From Rhodovulum imhoffii (GTDB taxonomy: Bacteria; Pseudomonadota; Alphaproteobacteria; Rhodobacterales; Rhodobacteraceae): DNA of 46,827 bases. The notes under the pieces were generated by a model. The model saw nothing but the letters and a program-made list of their open reading frames with translations. It did not search any database and was not told the origin of the DNA. This document shows, piece after piece, positions 35,620 to 46,672 of the stretch. A program made the position numbers and the translations under genes. The stretch lies in the NCBI RefSeq assembly GCF_003046545.1, contig NZ_QAAA01000017.1, positions 1 to 46,827 of the forward strand. Direction: 5' to 3'. Position 1 is the stretch's first letter. The number at the start of each line of letters is the position of its first letter.

Positions 35620-36531
35620 TCACCCGCCTTCAGGCTCCCCCAGCCCCTCCTCCGCGAAAGCCAGTTCTCCCACCACGCCCTGCGCAGCCGGTTCCGGCAC
35701 CTGCGCGGCCATTCCCCCCCCCGCGTCCAGCCTGATCGCCTTTTGCCCCTGCGATTGCCCCAGCCGGCCTGTGGCAAGCAGGGTCCGTTCCACGGTTTCA
35801 AGACGCACCGCCTGCAGCGCGCGGGCCGGTACCGGGACAAGATCCCCCACATCGAGACCGCGCAATTGCGCCAACGGCAAGGTTCCACGCCAAAGGATGG
35901 CCTTGCAGGCCATCGGCGCGGCATTAAGATTGTTGCGCATCAACATACGCCACTCCCCGCGCCGATCATCGCGTCTCAGGGCGGGCCGACCCGCCATCGG
36001 TACCGCCAGCCAAAGCACCCCCCGGCGCTGACCAAGCGCAATCGAAACGCCGAACTCCAGCAAACGCAGGCGCGCCTCCCCCATCAGCATGGGCAGCAGG
36101 CGCGGGGTCTCCACCACCGGGCCGCAGCGCAAAACCGGGGACAGTTCACACAGAAGCGGTGTCAGCCCCTCCCGCAACAGGGCGGTTTCAACCCGCGTGG
36201 AGCGGCGCGGCGCGGTCGTCGTGCCAAGGCCCCCGGTCAGACGCTGTTCGATCAGCGCAAGCGCCAGGTCCGCAGACATGCCGGCCAGGCCGATCCCGGC
36301 CTCCCCCCCTTCGACTTCGAACATCAGTGCGGTTTCCGGCACAAGCCGGGCAAGACTTTCCGGCGTTTGTACGCTGATCTGTTTGTCGCTGACGCCCAAT
36401 TCCAACCCGAAAAGCGCCTTCGCCCCCCGCTCCAACGCACGGGCCAGGGCCGCCACCGGCAGGTCGGACCGTTCCGGCCGGCCCGCCCCGGCCTTGGCGC
36501 GCAAGATTTGCTGATGCGTCCTGCCTGTCAT
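35620..36531 (-). CDS. FliM/FliN C-terminal domain protein
   Basis: The 303-residue product has an N-terminal part resembling FliM-type chaperone or switch regions (ALFGLELGVSDKQISVQTPESLARL, EQRLTGGLG). A SpoA-type C-terminal domain follows, RGTLPLAQLRGLDVGDLVPVPARALQAVRLE. This is the fold used in the flagellar switch and in type III secretion rings. No other flagellar gene lies in the window, so its role is unclear. It may be a stray switch component. The ATG at 36531 follows GGAGAGG. It ends in a low-complexity acidic tail. Confidence 0.7.
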   Translation of the reverse strand: MTGRTHQQILRAKAGAGRPERSDLPVAALARALERGAKALFGLELGVSDKQISVQTPESLARLVPETALMFEVEGGEAGIGLAGMSADLALALIEQRLTGGLGTTTAPRRSTRVETALLREGLTPLLCELSPVLRCGPVVETPRLLPMLMGEARLRLLEFGVSIALGQRRGVLWLAVPMAGRPALRRDDRRGEWRMLMRNNLNAAPMACKAILWRGTLPLAQLRGLDVGDLVPVPARALQAVRLETVERTLLATGRLGQSQGQKAIRLDAGGGMAAQVPEPAAQGVVGELAFAEEGLGEPEGG

Positions 36532-36594
36532 CCACCTCTCCACAACGATCTTTGGGGCGGTTTAGCTGGGCAGAGTTTACGAATGGTTGCGCTT

Positions 36595-39279
36595 TCAGGC
36601 CGCGCGGCGGCAGGCCTGGGGCAGGGTCACCCGGAAGGCCGCGCCGCGCTGGCCCGGCAGGTAGATGATCGACCCGCCCAGCTTGGACATCACCTCCCGG
36701 CAAATCGCCAGACCAAGACCTGCGCCGCCGGCGGAACGCGGATCCGTGAGGCGGGAAAACTTCTCGAAGATCAACGCCTGGCTCTTGCGCGGAATACCGG
36801 CGCCGTTGTCAATGAAATCCACCGCCAGACGTCCCCCGGCCTCGCGCACCTCGACACGCAGTTCGGGGACCTCCGCGGCACAGTATTTCTGGGCGTTTGC
36901 AATCAGATTTATGAAGACCTGCGTCAACCGGTCCGTATCGGTAAATATGCGAATCCTCTCACGCGCCGGGTCCCGCCGGATACGGATTCCCCCCGGACCG
37001 CTGCATCCCGCCGCCGCCGCCGCGCGGTCCAGCAAATCGGACAAATCGGCCGCCTGCTCATGCAAGGTGACCTGCCCGTTTTCCAAAACGCTCAGGTCCA
37101 GAAGATCATCGAGCAGGCGGGTCAGGCGCAGGGCTTCCTCGTGGATCACCCTTGAATAGCGGGTGCGTTCCTCGGGGGCGAGATTTTTCGTCTCGATCAA
37201 AATCTCGGAGAACGCGCGGATCGAAGTCATCGGCGTGCGCAGTTCATGGCTGATCTGGCTCAGGAACGCATCCTTCTGGATCGACAGAGCAGTGAGCTTC
37301 TCATTGGCCTCCCGCAACTGGCGGGCGGTACGGGCCAGTTCCTCGGACTTGGCCTCAAGCTGGCTGGAATACTCCATCATCTGGGCGGTCTCGTCAGCCA
37401 CCGCCATCAGATCCCCAACCGAAACCGAAGACCGGCCCACGATCTGCCCCACCATGGCATGCGCCGTCGCCGCCCCGACGGACCCCGCCAGTTCCCGTTC
37501 AAGATGCTGCAAGAACTCGGGCGTAATATCGGGCAGGTAGCCCCCCTTGCCCTGGTCGGCTGCCACCCGGTGAAACAGGGCCTGGGCCTCGGCCGGGCCC
37601 AGAATACGCTGGGCCATCAACAGCAGATCTTCGGCCTCAGCCTGCCCGTGGGTCCAGGCGCGCCCTTCGGCGGAACGTTCGAACACGTTCACGAACTGCG
37701 CCCCCTGCAATCGCTCCATCGGGCCGGGAAACCCCGCAAGAGACCCGCTGAAAAAGGCCAGTACGTTCAGGATCAGGCTCCAGAACACAGCGTGTACGAC
37801 CGGATCCATCTGAACCCCGAAAAGCGCCTGAGGGCGCAACCAGCCGATTCCCCAGGGGCCCTCGGCCAGCAACCGGGCGCTCATCACGGCGCCTTCGCCA
37901 AAGCTGGGCAGGAACAGCGTGTAGGCCCAAAGGGCAAACCCCGTGACCAGACCCGCCAGCGCCCCGCGCCGGGTTGCCCCCCGCCAGAAGATGCCCCCCA
38001 ACAGCGCCGGCAGCACCTGCGCCACACCGGCAAAGGAAATCAGCCCGATCGCCGCCAGCGCCTCCGATCCGCCGGAAAGACGGTAATAAAGATATCCCAG
38101 GAAAAGCACCCCGGCGATGGAGAAACGCCGCGCCCGCAGGACCAGCTTGCGTACATCCCCGGACATCGTCGCGCCTTCGCTTTTCCAGTTCAGGAACAGG
38201 GGCATCACGATATGGTTCGAAACCATCGTCGATAATGCGATCGCCGCCACGATGACCATCGACGTGGCTGAGGAAAACCCCCCCAGGAAAGCCAGGGTGG
38301 CCAAAAGCTCACGTCCCTGATCCAATGGCACGGTCAGCACGAACAGATCCGGGTTGGCCTGCGGCGGCATGACCTCCAGCCCGATCACGGCAATCGGCAC
38401 GACGAACAAGCTCATCAGCATCAGGTACAGCGGAAAGGCCCAGGACGCAGTCGCCAGATGCTTTTCATCGGCATTCTCGACCACCAGGACCTGGAACATG
38501 CGCGGCAGCGTCAGCACCGCCGCCGCCGACAGGAAGGTCAGCCCGATCCACCTTCCGGCCCGGATCTGATCCTGCGCGACGGGTGAGGCGTTGATCCGCG
38601 CCATCATCTCACCCGGTCCGCCCCCCAACCCCCAGACAACGAAAGACCCCACCGCCAGAAGAGCGAAAAGCTTGACCACGGCCTCCACCGCGATGGCCAT
38701 GACGACACCGTGGTGACGCTCATTCGCGTCGAGATTTCTGGTGCCGAACAACACCGTGAACAGCGCCAGCCCCGCCGCCACCGCAACCGCCGTGGCATTC
38801 GGGTCGATCGAAGACCACCGCCCTGCCCCCTGCGGCACGAAGACCGCAAAGGACAGCGTAACCGATTGGAGTTGAAGCGCGATGTAAGGCGTGGTGCCAA
38901 CCACCGCCAGCAGCGTCACGATCACGCCGAGCGTGTTCGACTTCCCGTAGCGCGATGAGATCAGGTCCGCGATCGAGGTGATCCGCTGGGTCTTGCCGAT
39001 ACGCACCAGCTTGCGCAGCGTCCACCACCAGCCGATCAGGACCAGCGTCGGCCCCAGATAAATGGTCACGAACTCCAGCCCGGAGCGCGCCGCGTATCCG
39101 ACGGCTCCGTAAAAGGTCCAGGCCGTGCAATAGACCGACAACGACAGCGTATAAACCAGCGGCGCCCGCAGCCAGTTGTCTCGCCCGGCGGCCGCCCGGC
39201 GCTCGGCCCAGAACGCAACGGCGAACAACACGACCACGTAGGCCAGGCAGATCGCCACAAGCAGGTCATAGGTGATCAT
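36595..39279 (-). CDS. Transporter-histidine kinase of the CrbS type
   Basis: The 894-residue protein has an N-terminal sodium/solute-symporter domain with about 13 helices (residues 1-530). A STAC-like linker (about 545-640, AEDLLLMAQRILGPAEAQALFHR) and a short coiled coil come next. The kinase core has H678 in SQISHELRTP, N box NLIANAQKY, G1 DNGAGIP and G2 GGAGLGLAI. CrbS-type kinases in Vibrio and Pseudomonas control acs, whose start is at the far end of this window. Its ATG overlaps the stop of the small membrane protein (ATGA). It could also sense proline or another symporter ligand. Confidence 0.9.
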   Translation of the reverse strand: MITYDLLVAICLAYVVVLFAVAFWAERRAAAGRDNWLRAPLVYTLSLSVYCTAWTFYGAVGYAARSGLEFVTIYLGPTLVLIGWWWTLRKLVRIGKTQRITSIADLISSRYGKSNTLGVIVTLLAVVGTTPYIALQLQSVTLSFAVFVPQGAGRWSSIDPNATAVAVAAGLALFTVLFGTRNLDANERHHGVVMAIAVEAVVKLFALLAVGSFVVWGLGGGPGEMMARINASPVAQDQIRAGRWIGLTFLSAAAVLTLPRMFQVLVVENADEKHLATASWAFPLYLMLMSLFVVPIAVIGLEVMPPQANPDLFVLTVPLDQGRELLATLAFLGGFSSATSMVIVAAIALSTMVSNHIVMPLFLNWKSEGATMSGDVRKLVLRARRFSIAGVLFLGYLYYRLSGGSEALAAIGLISFAGVAQVLPALLGGIFWRGATRRGALAGLVTGFALWAYTLFLPSFGEGAVMSARLLAEGPWGIGWLRPQALFGVQMDPVVHAVFWSLILNVLAFFSGSLAGFPGPMERLQGAQFVNVFERSAEGRAWTHGQAEAEDLLLMAQRILGPAEAQALFHRVAADQGKGGYLPDITPEFLQHLERELAGSVGAATAHAMVGQIVGRSSVSVGDLMAVADETAQMMEYSSQLEAKSEELARTARQLREANEKLTALSIQKDAFLSQISHELRTPMTSIRAFSEILIETKNLAPEERTRYSRVIHEEALRLTRLLDDLLDLSVLENGQVTLHEQAADLSDLLDRAAAAAGCSGPGGIRIRRDPARERIRIFTDTDRLTQVFINLIANAQKYCAAEVPELRVEVREAGGRLAVDFIDNGAGIPRKSQALIFEKFSRLTDPRSAGGAGLGLAICREVMSKLGGSIIYLPGQRGAAFRVTLPQACRRAA

Positions 39280-39524
39280 GGCCCGGACTCGCCGGGGGGC
39301 GCTGGCGGATCCTCCTGAAGCCGGCGCGACAAAAGCCCCGCCAGCAGGATCAGCCCCGCCCAGGCCAGGAAGAGGTAGGCGATCACCCCCGCCTCCGGGC
39401 GGCCATGCAGCAGCGGCAACAGGAACAACACGATCCCCAGCACCGGCAACAGCCGCGCCATGTCCCGCAGGCGGCGTCGGCGATAGCCTTCCCGCTCCAG
39501 GAACAGGCGCGTACGGCGGGTCAT
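39276..39524 (-). CDS. Small membrane protein of the kinase operon
   Basis: The 82-residue product has a very basic N-terminus (MTRRTRLFLEREGYRRRRLRD) and two hydrophobic helices (about residues 24-40 and 47-66). It is coupled at both ends by ATGA overlaps, to the response regulator upstream and the kinase downstream. That arrangement implies a fixed stoichiometry and perhaps a kinase accessory role. No family name is recognised. Confidence 0.75.
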   Translation of the reverse strand: MTRRTRLFLEREGYRRRRLRDMARLLPVLGIVLFLLPLLHGRPEAGVIAYLFLAWAGLILLAGLLSRRLQEDPPAPPGESGP

Positions 39525-39889
39525 TGGGGGAACAACTCGCGCAGGGCGGCAAGCACCTCGGTGTTGGAGAAAGGCTTGGTCATGAAGCGGCTGGCGCCCA
39601 GACGCTCAGCCATTTCGCGGTCCTTGGCCTGCCCCTTTGCCGTCAGCAACAGGACCGGCAGGCTGCCAATCTCATCCTGTTCGCGGATCTCGCGCAAGAT
39701 GTCGTAACCGGAACGATTGGGCAGCATGACGTCGAGAATCACCACATCGGGGCGGCGGTCCAGCACGGCATCCAGTGCGCTCTGACCGTCCGAATGGGTA
39801 TCCACCCGCCAGCCGTCCCGGCTGAGGATAAAGCGGATCGCCTCGATAATATTCGGCTCGTCCTCGATCAGAAGGACATGCTTGCCCAT
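39521..39889 (-). CDS. Receiver-only response regulator
   Basis: The 122-residue CheY-like protein has the phosphorylation quintet D10/E11, D53 (VVILDVMLPN), T83 and K105 (MTKPFS) and no output domain. CrbR of other species carries a LuxR-type DNA-binding domain, which is missing here, so the signal must pass to another protein. It leads the receiver / small protein / kinase operon. A strong promoter lies upstream at 39927-39955, and GGGGGG precedes the ATG. Confidence 0.9.
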   Translation of the reverse strand: MGKHVLLIEDEPNIIEAIRFILSRDGWRVDTHSDGQSALDAVLDRRPDVVILDVMLPNRSGYDILREIREQDEIGSLPVLLLTAKGQAKDREMAERLGASRFMTKPFSNTEVLAALRELFPQ

Positions 39890-39926: not shown

Positions 39927-39955
39927 TTTATCACCGGATTGGTCCGTGCTGTCAA
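39927..39955 (-). promoter_or_regulatory. Sigma-70-type promoter of the receiver-kinase operon
   Basis: On the minus strand TTGACA (39955-39950), a 17-base spacer and GATAAA (39932-39927) make a near-consensus promoter about 38 bases before the response regulator ATG. The -35 element overlaps the stop codon of the ScfR-family gene, so the operon has its own start despite the tandem order. Confidence 0.6.
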
Positions 39956-41244
39956 AACCCATGCGCGATGATGGAGGGTTCGCGCCGGGCGACACAATCT
40001 TCCCGCGGGCAGATCCGGCACGACGCACCGACCGGCTGTCCCTGCTCTCCGGGCGGAGCGGGCAGGATCAGCATCGACGCCTCGAACACCTGCGGCCCCC
40101 CGAATCCGCCGACGCGACGCGGCAGGCAAAGCGCGTAGGTCAGGAACCGGGCGGACAACCGGCCGGCCAGTTCGATCACCCCGCGCACAGGCATCGTGGG
40201 CCGCGACAGCGCCTGGTACAGCGGCCAAAGCGGACAGGCTGCGCCGAAGCGGGGCGGGTTGAAACCCTCTACCGGCTTGCGAAACGTCAGCGTGCCGGAG
40301 CCGTCGCATATGGCCAGTCCCACCGGCCCCGGCGCCCGTTCCGGCGGCAAGGATGCAAGGCGCCGGAACACCGCCGTCGCCGACACCGCGAACCGGTCCG
40401 CCAACGCGCCGGGATCGGGGCCGAGCACCTCCAGCGCCTCACAGAACGGTTCCAACGGCAGTTTGAGCGCATCGGCCCTGTAGCGGCGCAGATAGGCCAG
40501 CGCAAGGTCCCGTGCGGATGCGGAATCCAACGCGCCCGCCTGCGCGATGACCGTTTCGGGCGACGGCGGATCCGGCCCCTCCAGCACCGCCAGGTGGTAG
40601 GACTGTGCCTTCAGCCACACCTCGACCTCTTCCTGCGGGGAGTTGCGCAACAGGTCGTCCCCGCCGGAATTGTCCAGATAATTCACCAGCGCCTGGGCAC
40701 TTTCCGCCAACCGCGTGCTTTCATCCCCGATGTTGCGATGAAAGCGGCGGCGCCACTCCGGGTCGATATCCTCGGTCTCGATCAGGATCGCCGCGGTGGA
40801 ACGGATCGCCGTCACCGTGGAGAGCACTTCATGCACCGACGCCGACAGGAACGGATCGTGCGTCATGCGGTCGGTCAGCATTTCCACCGTGCGCTCCAGC
40901 CGGCGGATGTGGCGCTGTGTGTCCGCCAGCAATTGCGCCCAGCCGGGAAAGCGGCCGGCAAATTCTTCTATCCGGTCCTGCTCCGCGCTGTCATGGCCCA
41001 CCGCGGCGACGCGCAAACGGTCCAGCATGGCCGCCCCCGCCCCCTCGGTCAGCGCAGCGGCGTCGACCTCGAGCCGGCGGGCAATCTCGTTGAGCAGCTT
41101 ACCCCCGATTCTGCGACGGTTATGTTCGATCAGGTTCAGGTAGGACGGAGAAATACCCACCGCGTGGGCCAGGTCGGCCTGCCGAACTCCCATCATCATG
41201 CGTCTTTCGCGAATCCGGGTGCCTGTCAAAACGTTGCGGGGCAT
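39952..41244 (-). CDS. ScfR-family XRE regulator with a kinase-like DHp segment
   Basis: The 430-residue protein has an XRE helix-turn-helix at about 8-62 (QADLAHAVGISPSYLNLIEH) and a C-terminal short-chain-acyl regulator domain. That domain ends in a cysteine cluster, CRICPREDC, as in RamB/ScfR proteins that control acetate and propionate genes. Residues 128-192 resemble a histidine-kinase dimerisation domain, with H138 in SVHEVLSTVTAIR. This stretch aligns without gaps to the neighbouring kinase (about 23 of 59 identical by hand). There is no ATPase domain. It is divergent from the ABC transporter operon. Confidence 0.85.
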   Translation of the reverse strand: MPRNVLTGTRIRERRMMMGVRQADLAHAVGISPSYLNLIEHNRRRIGGKLLNEIARRLEVDAAALTEGAGAAMLDRLRVAAVGHDSAEQDRIEEFAGRFPGWAQLLADTQRHIRRLERTVEMLTDRMTHDPFLSASVHEVLSTVTAIRSTAAILIETEDIDPEWRRRFHRNIGDESTRLAESAQALVNYLDNSGGDDLLRNSPQEEVEVWLKAQSYHLAVLEGPDPPSPETVIAQAGALDSASARDLALAYLRRYRADALKLPLEPFCEALEVLGPDPGALADRFAVSATAVFRRLASLPPERAPGPVGLAICDGSGTLTFRKPVEGFNPPRFGAACPLWPLYQALSRPTMPVRGVIELAGRLSARFLTYALCLPRRVGGFGGPQVFEASMLILPAPPGEQGQPVGASCRICPREDCVARREPSIIAHGF

Positions 41245-41292: not shown

Positions 41293-41409
41293 ATTTTACA
41301 GTTTCTGCATCGCCATAGTCGAAAATTTTACAAGAAAATCTTTTTCAGAAAAGGGATTGTTGCAAGATTTTCGAACCCTCGCGGATACTGGGGGCGCTTT
41401 GTAAAGCAA
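41293..41409. promoter_or_regulatory. AT-rich control region with repeated motifs
   Basis: The divergent region between the ScfR-type gene and the ABC transporter is AT-rich in a GC-rich window. ATTTTACA occurs at 41293-41300 and again at 41325-41332, 32 bases apart. ATTTT-N5-AAAAT spans 41325-41339. CGAAAAT/ATTTTCG arms lie at 41320-41326 and 41367-41373. TTTGTAAAGCAA lies at 41398-41409. These resemble the TTTGCAAA-like sites of RamB-type regulators and are candidate ScfR operators. Confidence 0.4.
41360..41389 (+). promoter_or_regulatory. Possible promoter of the ABC transporter operon
   Basis: TTGCAA (41360-41365), an 18-base spacer and GATACT (41384-41389) form a modest sigma-70-like promoter within the repeat-rich control region, 67 bases before the binding-protein ATG. 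Confidence 0.35.
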
Positions 41410-41456: not shown

Positions 41457-42809
41457 ATGACCAACTCGTACCTGACGCGCCGCGGCGTGCTGAAAACCGG
41501 CGCGGTCGCCGGTGCCGGCGTTGCGCTTCCGACGATTTTCACGGCCGGGCGCGCCTCGGCCTTCACCAACGAGCCCATGGGCGGCACTGTCAAACTGGGC
41601 TTCAACGTCCCCCAGACCGGGCCCTATGCCGAAGAAGGGCTTGATGAACTCCGCGCCCAGGAACTGGCGGTTGAGCATCTCAATGGCATGGGCGATGGCG
41701 GGATGCTGAACACCTTCAGTTCCAAGGCGCTGGACGGAACCGGGATTCTCGGAAAGAAAGTCGAATTCGTCACCGGCGACACCCAGACCAAGTCCGATGC
41801 CGCGCGGGCCTCTGCCAAGTCGATGATCGAGAAGGATGGCGTGGTGATGATCAACGGCGGCTCGTCTTCGGGCGTGGCCGTCGCGGTGCAGGGCCTGTGC
41901 CAGGAAGCCGGTATCATCTTCATGGCCGGCCTGACCCATTCCAACGACACCACCGGCAAAGACCGCAAGCGCAACGGTTTCCGCCATTTCTTCAATGCCT
42001 ACATGTCCGGTGCCGCCCTGGCGCCCGTGCTGGAGAAGGCCTATGGCAACGACCGGCGCGCCTATCATCTGACCGCCGACTATACCTGGGGCTACACTCA
42101 GCAGGAATCCATCCAGGCCTCGACCGAGGCGCTGGGCTGGGAAACCGCCAACAACGTGCTGACGCCGGTCGGCGCAGGCGATTTTTCGTCCTACATCGCG
42201 CCGGTGCTGAACGCGGGCGTGGATGTTCTGGTGCTCAACCACTATGGCGGCGACATGGTCAACTCGCTGACTCAGGCGGTTCAGTTCGGCCTGCGCGACA
42301 AGCAGGTAAACGGCAAGAACTTCGAGATCGTCGTACCGCTCTATTCCGAATTGATGGCCGAGGGCGCGGGCGCCAACATCAAGGGCGTCTACGGCTCGAT
42401 GAACTGGAACTGGCAGCTTCAGGATGAAGGGACCAAGGCCTTCGTGAAATCCTTCGGCGAAAAATACGGCCGCCCGCCATCCAACTCGGCGCACACCTGC
42501 TATGTGCAGGTCCTTCTCTATGCCGACGCGGTGGCGCGGGCGGGGTCGTTCAACCCCTGCGCCGTGGTCGAGGCGCTGGAAGGGTTCGAATTCGACGGCA
42601 TGGGCAACGGTCCGACCACCTATCGTGCCGAAGATCACCAGTGCTTCAAGGATGTGCTGGTCATGAAAGGCGCGGAAAACCCCACCACCCAGTTCGATGT
42701 TCTGGAGGTGGTCGAGGTGACACCGCGCGCCCAGGTCGAATACGCCCCCGAACATCCGATGTTCGGCGGGGCAGAGGCCACCCTGGGCGAGTGCAACAGC
42801 GGCGCCTGA
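41457..42809 (+). CDS. LIV-type ABC transporter substrate-binding protein
   Basis: The 450-residue exported protein has a twin-arginine signal (YLTRRGVLKTGAVAGAG) and a type I periplasmic binding fold of the branched-chain amino acid/amide family. It has LGFNVPQTGPYAEEGLDELRA, INGGSSSGVAVAVQGL and DYTWGYTQQESIQA. The ligand is not readable from sequence. The neighbours (ScfR regulator, CrbS-like kinase, acs) point to a short-chain acid, an amide or another acetate precursor. GGGAGG precedes the start. A strong hairpin follows the gene. Confidence 0.88.
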   Translation: MTNSYLTRRGVLKTGAVAGAGVALPTIFTAGRASAFTNEPMGGTVKLGFNVPQTGPYAEEGLDELRAQELAVEHLNGMGDGGMLNTFSSKALDGTGILGKKVEFVTGDTQTKSDAARASAKSMIEKDGVVMINGGSSSGVAVAVQGLCQEAGIIFMAGLTHSNDTTGKDRKRNGFRHFFNAYMSGAALAPVLEKAYGNDRRAYHLTADYTWGYTQQESIQASTEALGWETANNVLTPVGAGDFSSYIAPVLNAGVDVLVLNHYGGDMVNSLTQAVQFGLRDKQVNGKNFEIVVPLYSELMAEGAGANIKGVYGSMNWNWQLQDEGTKAFVKSFGEKYGRPPSNSAHTCYVQVLLYADAVARAGSFNPCAVVEALEGFEFDGMGNGPTTYRAEDHQCFKDVLVMKGAENPTTQFDVLEVVEVTPRAQVEYAPEHPMFGGAEATLGECNSGA

Positions 42810-42823
42810 AACCTAACGCAACG

Positions 42824-42850
42824 CCTGCCGCGCCACGCCGGCGCGGCAGG
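42824..42850 (+). terminator. Hairpin between binding protein and permease
   Basis: CCTGCCGCGCC (42824-42834) and GGCGCGGCAGG (42840-42850) form a perfect 11-bp stem with a 5-base loop, 14 bases after the binding-protein stop. There is no T tract, so it is probably a 3' stabiliser that lets the binding protein outnumber the membrane parts. Confidence 0.55.
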
Positions 42851-42903
42851 ACCGGCCCCGGATGCAACGTCGGGCGGAGCGGAACTTTCCTGGGGAAGGG
42901 ACG

Positions 42904-43935
42904 ATGGAAGCCATCATTCTTCAAATTCTCAACGGGCTCGACAAAGGCTCGGCCTACGCCCTGATCGCGTTGGGGCTGACACTGATCTTCGGCACGCTGG
43001 GCGTGGTGAACTTCGCCCATGGCGCGCTGTTCATGATCGGGGCCTTCTGCGCCGTAACCATGCAGCGGATTCTGAACCTGTCCTTCGAACAGGTCGACCC
43101 AAGCCGTACCGACTTTCTGGGCAACCCGCTGAAGGTGCAGGTGCCTTACATCGAAAGCTGGTTCGGGCCGGAAACCGGCGGCGCTTTGCTGGACTGGTCG
43201 GTGCCGCTGTCGATCTTTCTGGCGATCCCCGTCATGATCGGGCTGGGCTACGCGATGGAGCGCGGACTTATAAAACATTTCTACAAGCGGCCCCACGCCG
43301 ATCAGATCCTGGTCACCTTTGGGCTTGCCATCGTGCTCCAGGAGATCATCAAGTACTTTTTCGGGGCGAACCCCATTCAGGTTGCCGCCCCTTCGGTATT
43401 TTCAGGCAGCTTCGATTTCGGCGCGATACTGGGCTTCGACCCGAACGTGATCATCTATCCCTACTGGCGCATGGTCTATTTCCTGTTTTCACTGGCGATC
43501 ATCGGCGCGGTCTTTTCCTTCCTGCAGTTCACCACTTTCGGCATGGTGGTACGGGCCGGCATGGCAGACCGCGAAACCGTCGGCCTGCTGGGCATCAATA
43601 TCGACCGTCGCTTTACAGTCATGTTCGGGCTGGCGGCGGCCGTCGCGGGGCTGGCCGGGGTGATGTACACCCCCATCCTCGCCCCCAACTATCACATGGG
43701 AATGGATTTTCTCGTGCTCAGTTTCGTCGTCGTGGTGGTGGGCGGCATGGGGTCCCTGCCCGGCGCGGTTCTGGCGGGGTTTCTTCTGGGCATCCTGCAA
43801 AGCTTTGCCTCGATGAACGAAATCAAGAGCATCATCCCCGGAATCGATCAGGTCATCATCTACCTGATCGCGATCATCATCCTGCTGACCCGGCCCCGCG
43901 GCCTGATGGGTCGCAAGGGCGTGATGGAGGACTGA
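42904..43935 (+). CDS. LIV-type ABC transporter permease (LivH)
   Basis: The 343-residue membrane protein starts MEAIILQILNGLDKGSAYAL. It has GLTLIFGTLGVVNFAHGALFMIG, FGMVVRAGMADRETVGLLGIN, VVVVGGMGSLPGAVLAG and a C-terminal TRPRGLMG, the LivH pattern. GGGAAGGG precedes the ATG at 42904. An ORF extension to 42862 lacks a ribosome-binding site. It forms half of the translocation pathway with the next gene. Confidence 0.92.
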   Translation: MEAIILQILNGLDKGSAYALIALGLTLIFGTLGVVNFAHGALFMIGAFCAVTMQRILNLSFEQVDPSRTDFLGNPLKVQVPYIESWFGPETGGALLDWSVPLSIFLAIPVMIGLGYAMERGLIKHFYKRPHADQILVTFGLAIVLQEIIKYFFGANPIQVAAPSVFSGSFDFGAILGFDPNVIIYPYWRMVYFLFSLAIIGAVFSFLQFTTFGMVVRAGMADRETVGLLGINIDRRFTVMFGLAAAVAGLAGVMYTPILAPNYHMGMDFLVLSFVVVVVGGMGSLPGAVLAGFLLGILQSFASMNEIKSIIPGIDQVIIYLIAIIILLTRPRGLMGRKGVMED

Positions 43936-43938
43936 CCC

Positions 43939-45135
43939 ATGTTCGGACTGAACCCACGAGACACCCGTTTCCTGTTGATCGTCGTCTTCCTGACGCTGGC
44001 CACGCCGCTGCTGCTGCAACCGTTCCCCGAAAGCTCCGGGCTGGCGCAGTTCAATGCCGGTTACCCGGACCTGATGCAGCGCTTCGCGATCTTCGGCATC
44101 TTTGCCATAGGCTTCAACATCCTGTTCGGGCTGACGGGGTATCTGTCCTTCGGACACGCGGCCTTCCTTGGGGTCGGCTCCTACACCGTGGTCTGGATGT
44201 ACAAGCTGCTGGGATACAACATTCTGCCGGGCCTTGTGCTGGCGATGGTGATCTCGGGGCTGTTCGCGCTGCTGATCGGTTTCATCTCGCTGCGCCGCTC
44301 GGGCATCTACTTTTCCATCCTGACGCTGGCCTTCGCGCAGATGAGCTACAACCTCGCCTATTCGGTGCTGACCCCGATCACCAACGGGGAAACCGGGCTT
44401 CAGGTCTACAGCAATGACCCGCAGGTGCTGATGGGCGCCAACGCCCCCACCAGCCCGCACATCTTCGGGCTCGTGATGCGCGACTCGGTGCAGCTGCCGG
44501 TGGGGGATTGGCTTTTCACCTTCAACATCGGCTACTACTTCTGCGCCATCGTCGCGATCCTCGCCTTTTATATCAGCCTGCGGATATTCCGCTCCCCCTT
44601 CGGGATGATGCTGCGGGCAATCAAGACCAACCAGACGCGGCTGAACTACACGGGGCTGAACCCGCGGCCCTATACGCTGGCGGCCTTCGTGATCTCGGGC
44701 ATCTACGCGGGTCTCGCCGGCGGGCTTCTGGCGGCGATGGACCCTCTGGCCGGCGCCGAACGCATGCAGTGGACCGCCAGCGGAGAGGTCGTTCTGATGA
44801 CCATCCTCGGCGGCGCAGGAACCCTGATGGGGCCGGTACTGGGGGCGGGTTTCATCAAGTATTTCGAGAACATCTTCTCGAAAATCAACGATAATGTCCT
44901 GCACGCCTGGTTCGCCTTCCTGCCCGACGGGCTGGAAAACTTCCTGGTGGCATTGATGCATCCCTTCGTGGGCAAGGGCTGGCACCTGACCCTGGGGATC
45001 CTGTTCATGCTGGTCGTGATCTTCCTGCCCGGCGGCCTGATCGAGGGCGGTCAGCGGATCGCGCGTCTGTTCCGTCGCCGCCCCGACAGCGATAGCCGGC
45101 ATCAGCCCAAACCCGCGCCTCATGTCGGCGAATGA
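43939..45135 (+). CDS. LIV-type ABC transporter permease (LivM)
   Basis: The 398-residue membrane protein has [64 protein letters not shown] and [20 protein letters not shown], characteristic of LivM. A loop of about 60 residues ([15 protein letters not shown] to VGDWLFTF region) projects between helices. It follows livH after 3 bases, and the ATP-binding gene begins 13 bases after its stop. Confidence 0.92.
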
Positions 45136-45148
45136 AAAGGACGAAGCC

Positions 45149-45904
45149 ATGGGTATCCTCGAAGTCAAAGGCGTAGGAAAGCGGTTCGGCGGACTTCAGG
45201 CACTGGGGGATGTGAACCTCTCGGTGGCGGAAAACACCGTCCACGCCATCATCGGGCCAAACGGGGCGGGAAAGTCGACGCTGTTGAACTGCCTTGTCGG
45301 CAAGCTGATCCCCGACACCGGAAGCGTCATGTTCGACGGCCAGTCCGTTCTGGGAAGAAAACCACATGAAATCAACCAGATGGGGATATCCCGCGTGTTC
45401 CAGACACCGGAAATCTTCGGCGACCTGACGGTGATGGAAAACATGCTGATCCCCTGTTTCGCCAAGCGTGACGGGGCATTCCGCCTGCATCCCTTCGAAA
45501 CCGTCGCGAATGAGCGCGCCCTGAATGAGCGCGCCCTACAGATGCTGGAAGACCTGAACATGGCCGAAAAGCGCCACATGCACGCCGCCAGCCTGTCTCG
45601 CGGGGACAAGCGGCGGCTGGAAATGGCCATGTGCCTGGTACAGGAGCCCCGCCTGTTGCTGCTGGACGAACCGACCGCCGGCATGGCCCGCGCCGATACC
45701 AACAACACGATCGATTTGCTCAAGCAGATCAAGGAAACGCGCGACATCACCATGGCGATCATCGAACATGACATGCACGTCGTGTTCAGCCTGGCGGACC
45801 GGATCACCGTTCTGGCGCAAGGCACACCGCTGGTCGAAGATGTGCCCGAAAAGATCAAGGGGCATCCGAAGGTACAGGAAGCCTATCTTGGACAAGCGCA
45901 CTGA
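45149..45904 (+). CDS. LIV-type ABC transporter ATP-binding protein (LivG)
   Basis: The 251-residue ATPase has Walker [16 protein letters not shown]-loop VFQTPEIF, a degenerate signature LSRGDKRRLEMAM (LSRGD in place of LSGGQ), Walker B LLLLDEPTAGM and H-loop IEHDMHVV. It drives uptake with the next gene product. AAGGA 8 bases upstream favours ATG 45149 over an in-frame ATG at 45122 that overlaps livM. Confidence 0.92.
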   Translation: MGILEVKGVGKRFGGLQALGDVNLSVAENTVHAIIGPNGAGKSTLLNCLVGKLIPDTGSVMFDGQSVLGRKPHEINQMGISRVFQTPEIFGDLTVMENMLIPCFAKRDGAFRLHPFETVANERALNERALQMLEDLNMAEKRHMHAASLSRGDKRRLEMAMCLVQEPRLLLLDEPTAGMARADTNNTIDLLKQIKETRDITMAIIEHDMHVVFSLADRITVLAQGTPLVEDVPEKIKGHPKVQEAYLGQAH

Positions 45905-45916
45905 GGAGGCGCGGAC

Positions 45917-46672
45917 ATGAACGTCAAACCCGATTTCAACAAACACGCCAACCAGGCGGCCACGGCACCGGCCTACCTGTCGGTCTATGACCTGCACGCA
46001 TATTACGGCGAAAGCTATATCGTGCAAGGCGTCAGCTTCAATGTCCATGAGGGCGAGATCCTTGCCCTGCTCGGGCGAAACGGGGCAGGCAAGACCTCGA
46101 CCCTGCGTGCCATCGCACGGCTCGACGACCCGCAGGTTACCCACGGGGAAATCTGGCTCGACCACAAGCACCTGCATACGATGACCTCGTATGAGGCCAG
46201 CGTACACGGGCTGGCGCTGGTGCCCGAGGACCGGCGCATCATTGCCGGGCTGACAGTGGAGGAAAACCTGCAACTGGCCCAGATCGTGGAGCCGGTCGGC
46301 TGGTCGCTGGAGCGCCTTTACGACCTCTTCCCCCGCCTCGGGGAGCGCCGCAAGCAGGAGGGCGTAACCCTGTCGGGCGGGGAGCAACAAATGCTGGCCA
46401 TCGCCCGCGCGCTGGCCCGCGACATCAAGGTGCTGCTGCTCGACGAACCCTATGAGGGGCTCGCGCCGGTCATCGTCGACGAGATCGAAAAGACGCTCAT
46501 CCATATCAAGGAACAGGGGATCACGACGATCCTCGTGGAGCAGAATGCGATTCGCGCACTGGAACTGGCCGATCGCGCCGTTATTCTGGACACCGGCCAG
46601 ATCGTATTTGACGGCTCCGCAGAGGAAGTTCTCAAGGATGCAGCCCTGCGTGCCGAGTATCTGGCCATCTGA
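45917..46672 (+). CDS. LIV-type ABC transporter ATP-binding protein (LivF)
   Basis: The 251-residue ATPase has Walker A GRNGAGKTSTLRA, PEDRRIIAGLTVEENL, signature LSGGEQQMLAIARAL, Walker B LLLDEPYEGLAP and a final VEQN H-loop variant typical of LivF. It follows livG after 12 bases with GAGG upstream. The next gene on the strand, 44 bases on, is acetyl-CoA synthetase. Confidence 0.93.
   Translation: MNVKPDFNKHANQAATAPAYLSVYDLHAYYGESYIVQGVSFNVHEGEILALLGRNGAGKTSTLRAIARLDDPQVTHGEIWLDHKHLHTMTSYEASVHGLALVPEDRRIIAGLTVEENLQLAQIVEPVGWSLERLYDLFPRLGERRKQEGVTLSGGEQQMLAIARALARDIKVLLLDEPYEGLAPVIVDEIEKTLIHIKEQGITTILVEQNAIRALELADRAVILDTGQIVFDGSAEEVLKDAALRAEYLAI

Follow-up and report, generated by a model that had tools for sequence, protein, structure and literature searches.

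A histidine-kinase-like hairpin in an ScfR-type regulator of Rhodovulum imhoffii, a candidate target for a receiver without an output domain

Within a 46,827-nucleotide stretch of the 2.9-Mb genome of Rhodovulum imhoffii (contig NZ_QAAA01000017.1; hereafter, the window), four genes on the minus strand follow one another in the order regulator, receiver, small protein and kinase, with the small protein frame overlapping the receiver and kinase genes by a few bases. The genes at the locus are:

35620-36543, minus strand: FliMN_C-domain protein, immediately downstream of the kinase
36595-39279, minus strand: SLC5-type transporter/histidine kinase, 894 aa, with HisKA and HATPase domains (Pfam)
39275-39524, minus strand: small protein, 82 aa, from the translation, with two membrane helices by eye, in the place of CbrX
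39521-39889, minus strand: receiver-only response regulator, 122 aa (Pfam Response_reg, 95.6 bits)
39952-41244, minus strand: regulator, 430 aa, with an XRE HTH, a coil, a DHp-like hairpin, a shortened middle stretch and an ScfR C-terminal domain
41457-42809, plus strand: Peripla_BP_6 ABC substrate-binding protein (Pfam), divergent from the regulator, a candidate target
41457-46672, plus strand: divergent Peripla_BP_6/branched-chain-type ABC transporter genes

The kinase has a CbrA-related sensor part, as is found among the SLC5/STAC kinases of the CrbS/CrbR, CbrA/CbrB and RpuS/RpuR systems: its residues 7-462 match PDB entry 10ED (E 2.3e-71), a structure of the SLC5-STAC part of CbrA from Pseudomonas together with CbrX (PMC13022988), and Pfam returned no symporter match in the kinase at E<=0.001. 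CbrX, a binding partner of the CbrA SLC5 domain, is encoded just ahead of CbrA (PMC13022988), as the small protein of the window is encoded just ahead of its kinase; the best match of this protein among PDB sequences (E 0.38) is not CbrX, and no similarity to CbrX was detectable. In 104 of 110 loci, an open reading frame homologous to the small protein is found between the receiver and kinase genes, and 93 of the 110 share one downstream gene family, presumably the FliMN_C-domain gene. Whereas CrbR is described as itself activating acs transcription, no output domain was found by Pfam in the window receiver; nor was an ATPase domain found in the regulator, and on both points the initial annotation of the sequence was right.

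We found the regulator to be an ScfR-like variant, with HTH_3 and ScfRs scores above the Pfam cut-offs, that is neither a HisKA protein by the Pfam cut-off nor a kinase. Its parts, and the matching stretch of the kinase, are as follows:

41056-41214, minus strand: HTH_3 DNA-binding domain, regulator residues 11-63 (Pfam, 42.3 bits; cut-off 23)
40858-40947, minus strand: long coil helix, regulator residues 100-129, leading into the hairpin (AlphaFold2 block pLDDT 90, 83, 76)
40663-40854, minus strand: DHp-like hairpin, regulator residues 131-156 and 162-194 (AlphaFold2, segment model, Foldseek, HHalign)
40831-40833, minus strand: codon of H138, the equivalent of kinase H678 (alignment and conservation)
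39970-40323, minus strand: ScfR C-terminal domain, regulator residues 308-425 (Pfam ScfRs, 48.4 bits; cut-off 24)
37084-37278, minus strand: DHp region of the kinase, residues 668-732, the stretch matched by the regulator
37246-37248, minus strand: codon of kinase H678 (alignment)

Regulator residues 128-192, which correspond exactly to positions 40669-40863, where the initial annotation had placed a kinase-type dimerization segment, aligned without gaps to kinase residues 668-732 with 24 of 65 positions identical (24 of the 59 counted from residue 128, against about 23 of 59 in the earlier hand count, whose alignment was correct). The best of the 300,562 other ungapped 65-residue pairings of the two proteins reached 16 identities. 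Homology of the hairpin to the kinase was equally clear from BLASTP (regulator 88-176 against kinase 630-716: 33% of 89 residues, 50 bits, E 1e-10 as a single comparison) and from a profile-profile alignment of both families with HHalign (probability 96.9, E 1.7e-10 for one template, 60 gapless columns), bearing out the proposed kinase derivation of the segment. When a profile of the regulator segment was compared with the 21 HisKA loci encoded in the R. imhoffii genome, the adjacent kinase scored 38.8 bits and the next best 7.8, and throughout that genome only the regulator and the adjacent kinase matched at E<=1e-6. A kinase profile, in turn, matched all 119 regulators of an order-wide set at E<=1e-3, the best of 595 shuffled sequences scoring 5.1 bits; this set holds about one regulator per genus plus six named records, i.e., 122 loci minus L176, which has no regulator, and minus L047 and L190, which are truncated at the ends of their contigs. 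The check with the Pfam HisKA profile that had been suggested came out mixed, in that 33 of the 119 regulator segments matched at E<=1 (best, 7.2e-5), but the window regulator stayed below the gathering score of 26.9 both as a whole (11.9 bits) and as an isolated segment (15.7 bits). Two NCBIfam kinase models, CreC (23.5 bits, residues 113-186) and PnpS (14.9 bits), overlapped the segment at scores far under their cut-offs.

Across 299 genomes of the phylum, the segment profile found matches in 33 genomes outside the class, of which 14 were inspected; in each of these the match was a kinase and not a relative of the regulator. Three of these were nearly full-length relatives of the SLC5-type kinase, the strongest matches being such relatives of 913-935 aa, and in the other 11 the frames continue through the kinase catalytic part; the two in-class matches that were inspected (L369 and L372) were kinases as well. 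Given that the own-genome match was limited to the adjacent kinase and that the inspected outside-class matches were kinases, the hairpin segment most likely derives from this SLC5-type kinase family. The most kinase-like regulators, at L288, L290, L297 and L308, are 43-57% identical to their own kinases, and that of L288 has a near-complete H-box, STSTHELRTFLTSIRSFSEIL. Overall, the identity between regulator and kinase of the same locus (0.305) was not above that between different loci (0.299; n=138, p=0.23), so that the segment resembles the kinase family and not specially its same-locus partner, and we rejected a co-evolution of same-locus pairs. This result also weighs on the idea that the regulator deals with the kinase directly, its hairpin forming mixed dimers with the kinase DHp and acting as a decoy or receiving the phosphoryl group there. 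While the resemblance of the hairpin to the kinase helices would favor such contacts, same-locus pairs are no more alike than pairs from different loci, the kinase is membrane-bound, and the free receiver would be left without an output. We regard direct kinase contact as highly improbable, and the decoy idea, which had been raised in the initial annotation, has little behind it.

The hairpin is an extra element compared with the ScfR proteins MtPrpR, RamB and PccR, with which the regulator shares the HTH, the ScfR C-terminal domain, a CxxCx4C motif with an upstream cysteine, and the habit of a two-box operator (PMC6765138; PMC10370305). In tblastn comparisons with canonical ScfR paralogues, the match ended near residue 132 and restarted near 232-251, and MtPrpR aligned to the regulator profile weakly at positions 58-135 (16 bits) and strongly at 231-428 (99 bits), with a PHEEV stretch placeable near profile position 203 at an insignificant score (-2.1 bits). 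As these matches break off around it, the hairpin is most simply read as sequence added where the coil ends, probably by insertion. That the His-Glu pair at residues 138-139 is left over from the HExxH motif of IrrE is unlikely, since the kinase pattern is followed over 60 columns and the tblastn matches of the ScfR paralogues leave the hairpin uncovered. The position of the hairpin corresponds to that of DII (residues 81-152) in MtPrpR, a region invisible in the crystal (PMC6765138).

About 75 PrpR residues after the hairpin have no counterpart in the regulator, which affects the CoA pocket. Seven CoA-contact residues are named for MtPrpR (F240, K217, H319, R338, K347, K410 and F155; PMC6765138), of which we mapped five, leaving out K410 and F155, the latter misfitting the numbering offset. 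F240 and K217 fall in the stretch that is missing from the window regulator family, and H319, R338 and K347 align to R294, I312 and F321 by an offset taken from the cysteines and H319. MtPrpR-like CoA contacts in the DIII/GAF pocket are hence absent or replaced at all five mapped positions and give no support to the acyl-CoA sensing that the initial annotation had ascribed to the regulator; its link to acetate specifically likewise found no support. By contrast, C337, C409, C412 and C417, which align to PrpR C363, C447, C450 and C455, are invariant in the 119 regulator rows. With much of the CoA pocket altered, acyl-CoA binding by the window regulator is doubtful, and with its Fe-S cysteines invariant, an iron-sulfur cluster is likely. 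Relatives from outside the family, at 480-560 aa, have a longer middle stretch, and 16 of 20 aligned regulators from this outer group have a histidine at the position of MtPrpR H319.

AlphaFold2, run with the 119-row alignment, yielded a regulator model with a mean pLDDT of 90.7, in which a helix at residues 100-129 is followed by a helix at 131-156, a turn and a helix at 162-194, the hairpin continuing the coil. The pLDDT of the hairpin blocks was 87-97 for residues 131-190 and 57 for 191-200, and the segment adopted the same two-helix fold when modeled alone. The predicted fold is thus that of a HisKA/DHp domain, a two-helix hairpin carrying the H-box histidine, as had been expected from the sequence. 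Upon comparing the models with the PDB by Foldseek, we obtained MtPrpR as the best structural match of the whole regulator (E 3.9e-11), and, for the hairpin, nine histidine-kinase chains as the first nine matches, including VC2136 (9p6i), HK853-RR468 (4jav and 3dge), 4jau and the SrrAB kinase (6paj). Their E values were weak (0.08-0.5) at probabilities of 0.95-0.99, with one exception at 0.38, and unrelated helical hairpins ranked directly after the kinases and scored nearly as well.

The arrangement of a DHp-bearing regulator occurs well beyond the window genome. Among 292 genomes of the order, all labeled as the family of the window, regulator and kinase occurred together in 283, the kinase alone in three (G006 and G281, with kinases 43-44% identical, and G118), the regulator alone in none, and neither in six (Fisher p 1e-10, uncorrected for kinship). 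Genomes were taken as regulator-positive at a best E<=1e-30, the other nine giving 3.3e-13 or weaker, or no match. At L176 in G118, the kinase, small protein and receiver are present, and no regulator orthologue was found. The regulator adjoins the receiver in 112 of the 119 loci of the order set; in the other seven, H138 is kept, and the kinase and its adjoining receiver lie elsewhere in the genome, ~6 to 900 kb off. A scan of genome contigs with P0001 gave seven loci. Gene order and co-occurrence, for which the initial annotation had called for a survey, thus both point to a link between the three genes. Of 385 genomes sampled across the class, 45 matched the regulator at E<=1e-40, including 40 from outside the family, and the remaining 340 had no regulator at this threshold. 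From the 40 outer genomes, we took 38 regulators (G525 and G548 left out), of which 37, spanning 20 families, bear the hairpin, and 27 of these 37 (17 families) adjoin the receiver and/or the kinase. Without L298, which has no hairpin, the outer regulators and the order set make up the 156 regulators compared below.

As the initial annotation had proposed, H138 is the counterpart of the kinase phospho-acceptor H678, and we found it conserved in 118 of the 119 regulators of the order set and in 148 of the 156 overall. The eight exceptions are a tyrosine at L058, where the cassette is intact, and seven unlinked loci of three genera, where the residue is Phe (four species of one genus), Gln (two species of a second) or Tyr (one species of a third). 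All seven unlinked genomes keep a kinase (44-48% identical) and an adjacent receiver (40-47%). At L289 and L294-L296, which belong to one genus and have Phe for His, the sequence RLRTLVTSI, which resembles a kinase H-box, is retained, and kinase and receiver lie ~8 kb away. Loss of the histidine was commoner at split loci, in 3 of 13 unlinked genera compared to 1 of 139 linked loci (Fisher p 0.002) or, by locus, in 7 of 17 unlinked compared to 1 of 139 linked. This sorting was made by hand, with L290 and L308 (kinase and receiver in opposite orientation), L301 (receiver only) and L277 (kinase only) counted as linked. We did not accept the losses as proof of coupling, as kinase and receiver persist in those genomes and the observation therefore cuts both ways. 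At L309 (G500), the histidine is kept; no receiver orthologue was found, the best match lying inside a 1133-aa frame, and no kinase lies in the 16 kb covered at this locus.

Because Phe, Tyr and Gln are tolerated at this position, the near-universal histidine is unlikely to be merely a structural residue. This bears on the simplest role that could be given to the hairpin, namely to strengthen the regulator dimer without any dealings with receiver or kinase. DHp domains are dimerization domains, the hairpin continues the coil, and it is kept in the regulators that lack the histidine, all of which would suit such a role. It would, however, leave unexplained why the histidine is present in 148 of 156 regulators despite the tolerated replacements, why the regulator never occurs without the kinase in the 292 genomes, and why the segment is specifically like this kinase family. 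We consider a plain dimerization module improbable.

The residues around H138 differ from those of a kinase. H+1 is Glu or Asp in 110 of the 156 regulators (Glu in the window protein), H+3 is Arg in 6, H+4 is Ser or Thr in 148 (Ser in 114), and the seven commonest residues at H+5 do not include Pro; the window regulator has no HATPase domain, and its H-box reads HEVLST as opposed to the H-E-L-R-T-P of histidine kinases. In four HisKA kinases, the acid at H+1 was needed for kinase activity, and Thr/Asn at H+4 for phosphatase activity (PMC3510030). The drift at H+1 and H+3 of the regulators is hence more in keeping with an acceptor or phosphatase site than with a self-kinase.

More uniform are H+8, H+11 and H+15, which, from PDB titles, we take to be the rewired receiver-interface positions of HK853. 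They are small, small and Ile in 154, 156 and 156 of the 156 regulators and in 140, 140 and 134 of 140 kinases, and this combination occurs in none of the nine other own-genome kinases alignable that far. An analysis of covariation gave a contact-block mean z of 0.61 for the regulator and 0.45 for the kinase (random blocks 0.0, sd 0.19), which we did not count, as it is weakened by the near-invariant alpha-1 columns of the receiver and the strongest pairs lie elsewhere. With a receiver that lacks an output and a regulator that carries the kinase's receiver-binding module with matching contacts, signaling from kinase to receiver to regulator is the simplest reading, and we infer that the receiver quite likely docks on the regulator hairpin.

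Docking might also be all that happens. The phosphorylated receiver would then act as an allosteric partner without a stable phospho-histidine, and H138 with the Ser/Thr at H+4 would mainly dephosphorylate it, the regulator sensing the phosphorylated receiver as a phosphatase or sink and not being phosphorylated itself. Consistent with this, the Ser/Thr at H+4 occupies the HisKA phosphatase position (PMC3510030) and is as frequent as the histidine (148 of 156 each), the small residue at H+11 and the Ile at H+15 are kept throughout (156 of 156), and three genera retain the hairpin without the histidine while kinase and receiver persist. Yet a phosphatase role alone need not demand the histidine in 148 of 156 regulators, as the H371A mutant of CrdS kept most of its phosphatase activity, whereas PleC H610A lost it (PMC3510030), and the Ser at H+4 in 114 of 156 differs from the Thr/Asn proven at the phosphatase position. 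On balance, docking without phosphorylation of the regulator appears rather unlikely.

Upstream of the regulator gene, we found an operator-like pattern, which takes the following form in the window:

41295-41333, no strand assigned: two direct boxes, TTTACAG and TTTACAA, whose starts are 32 bp apart, a candidate autoregulatory operator
41399-41405, no strand assigned: third box, inverted, in the divergent promoter and regulator upstream region

Boxes of the form [TC]TGTAAA, in either orientation, were present upstream of the regulator in 104 of the 119 loci, with two or more in 74, compared to at most one locus with two or more in a shuffled control (20 rough 2-base-block shuffles). Direct pairs exactly 32 bp apart occurred in 52 of the 119 loci. 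In a search of ~10 kb per locus (118 loci, 1,241 kb), all 51 of the 32-bp pairs lay <=250 bp upstream of the regulator start, in loci that share ancestry and hence are not independent. Beside the regulator gene of the seven split genomes, we found a 32-bp pair in four, other boxes in two and none in one, and there were no boxes ahead of the receiver in 10 genomes, where the receiver start was guessed from a motif. Two-box sites are common for ScfRs, with a spacer of 18 bp for RamB (PMC10370305). As the box pairs lie upstream of the regulator gene and stay with the regulator in split genomes, the regulator probably controls its own promoter, and perhaps also the divergent ABC transporter. Transporter clusters on the opposite strand were found upstream of the regulator with a permease in 76 and a binding protein in 68 of 110 loci.

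Overall, the comparisons suggest that the regulator is the missing output of the usually adjacent sensor kinase, and that it may itself be switched by phosphorylation. The membrane transporter-like sensor kinase would phosphorylate the diffusible receiver. Docking of the receiver on the DHp-like hairpin, a module that probably originated as a copy from the kinase and was added where the ScfR coil ends, would bring the signal to the regulator on the DNA. From the receiver, the phosphoryl group would move to H138, and the resulting change in the hairpin would be sent via the coil to the HTH, altering how a two-box operator is occupied at the promoter of the regulator gene and perhaps also at the divergent transporter. 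For this whole chain, from the kinase through the receiver and H138 to altered operator occupancy, we see the chances as about even. Judged separately from the sequence, phosphotransfer from the receiver to H138 is as credible as its opposite, and an effect of the hairpin change on DNA binding is similarly balanced. A phosphorelay that ends on a histidine is unusual, which counts against the relay. Transfer from a receiver to a kinase-like histidine acceptor has precedents in two single-domain receivers of Alphaproteobacteria, MrrA, which gives its phosphoryl group to PhyK (PMC5964349), and SdrG, which gives it to PhyT (PMC5898713). We hypothesize that the locus represents an old alphaproteobacterial design, a His-ended phosphorelay on DNA in which a free receiver phosphorylates a transcription factor via a hairpin from the upstream kinase, the kinase's receiver-docking module having been re-used as a building block of the output; we hold this tentatively, at somewhat under even chances.

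The regulator has in common with ChpT, PhyT and PhyK that the histidine acceptor resides in a kinase-like protein. ChpT is a dimeric histidine phosphotransferase resembling kinases (PMC3433190), and the ChpT of the window genome, found by PF10090, reads ICHDIISPLGAIGNGVELL as compared to VHEVLSTVTAIRSTAAIL, resembling the pattern of the regulator family. PhyT and PhyK forward the phosphoryl group to another receiver protein, whereas the hairpin of the window sits in a DNA-binding protein, with no further receiver seen at the window locus. Pden_1785 of Paracoccus denitrificans, which has been placed in the ScfR network and clustered with a two-component system (PMC10370305), is probably orthologous to the window regulator, and the part of that report covered here mentions neither a hairpin nor a histidine kinase for it. 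In line with the initial annotation, which knew of no such arrangement, our literature search, made mostly of titles and listings with few full texts, turned up no account of an HTH regulator bearing a DHp segment.

A known target is often lacking for receivers without output domains. The conserved family described here offers a candidate target for such a receiver in the form of a transcription factor that carries the kinase's own docking module, and with it a model for signaling by SLC5-type sensor kinases in Alphaproteobacteria. Membership in PF09856 need not mean acyl-CoA sensing, and the re-use of a kinase domain can rewire a metabolic regulator. If true, the proposed relay would make phospho-histidine switching by two-component systems a further means of transcription control.
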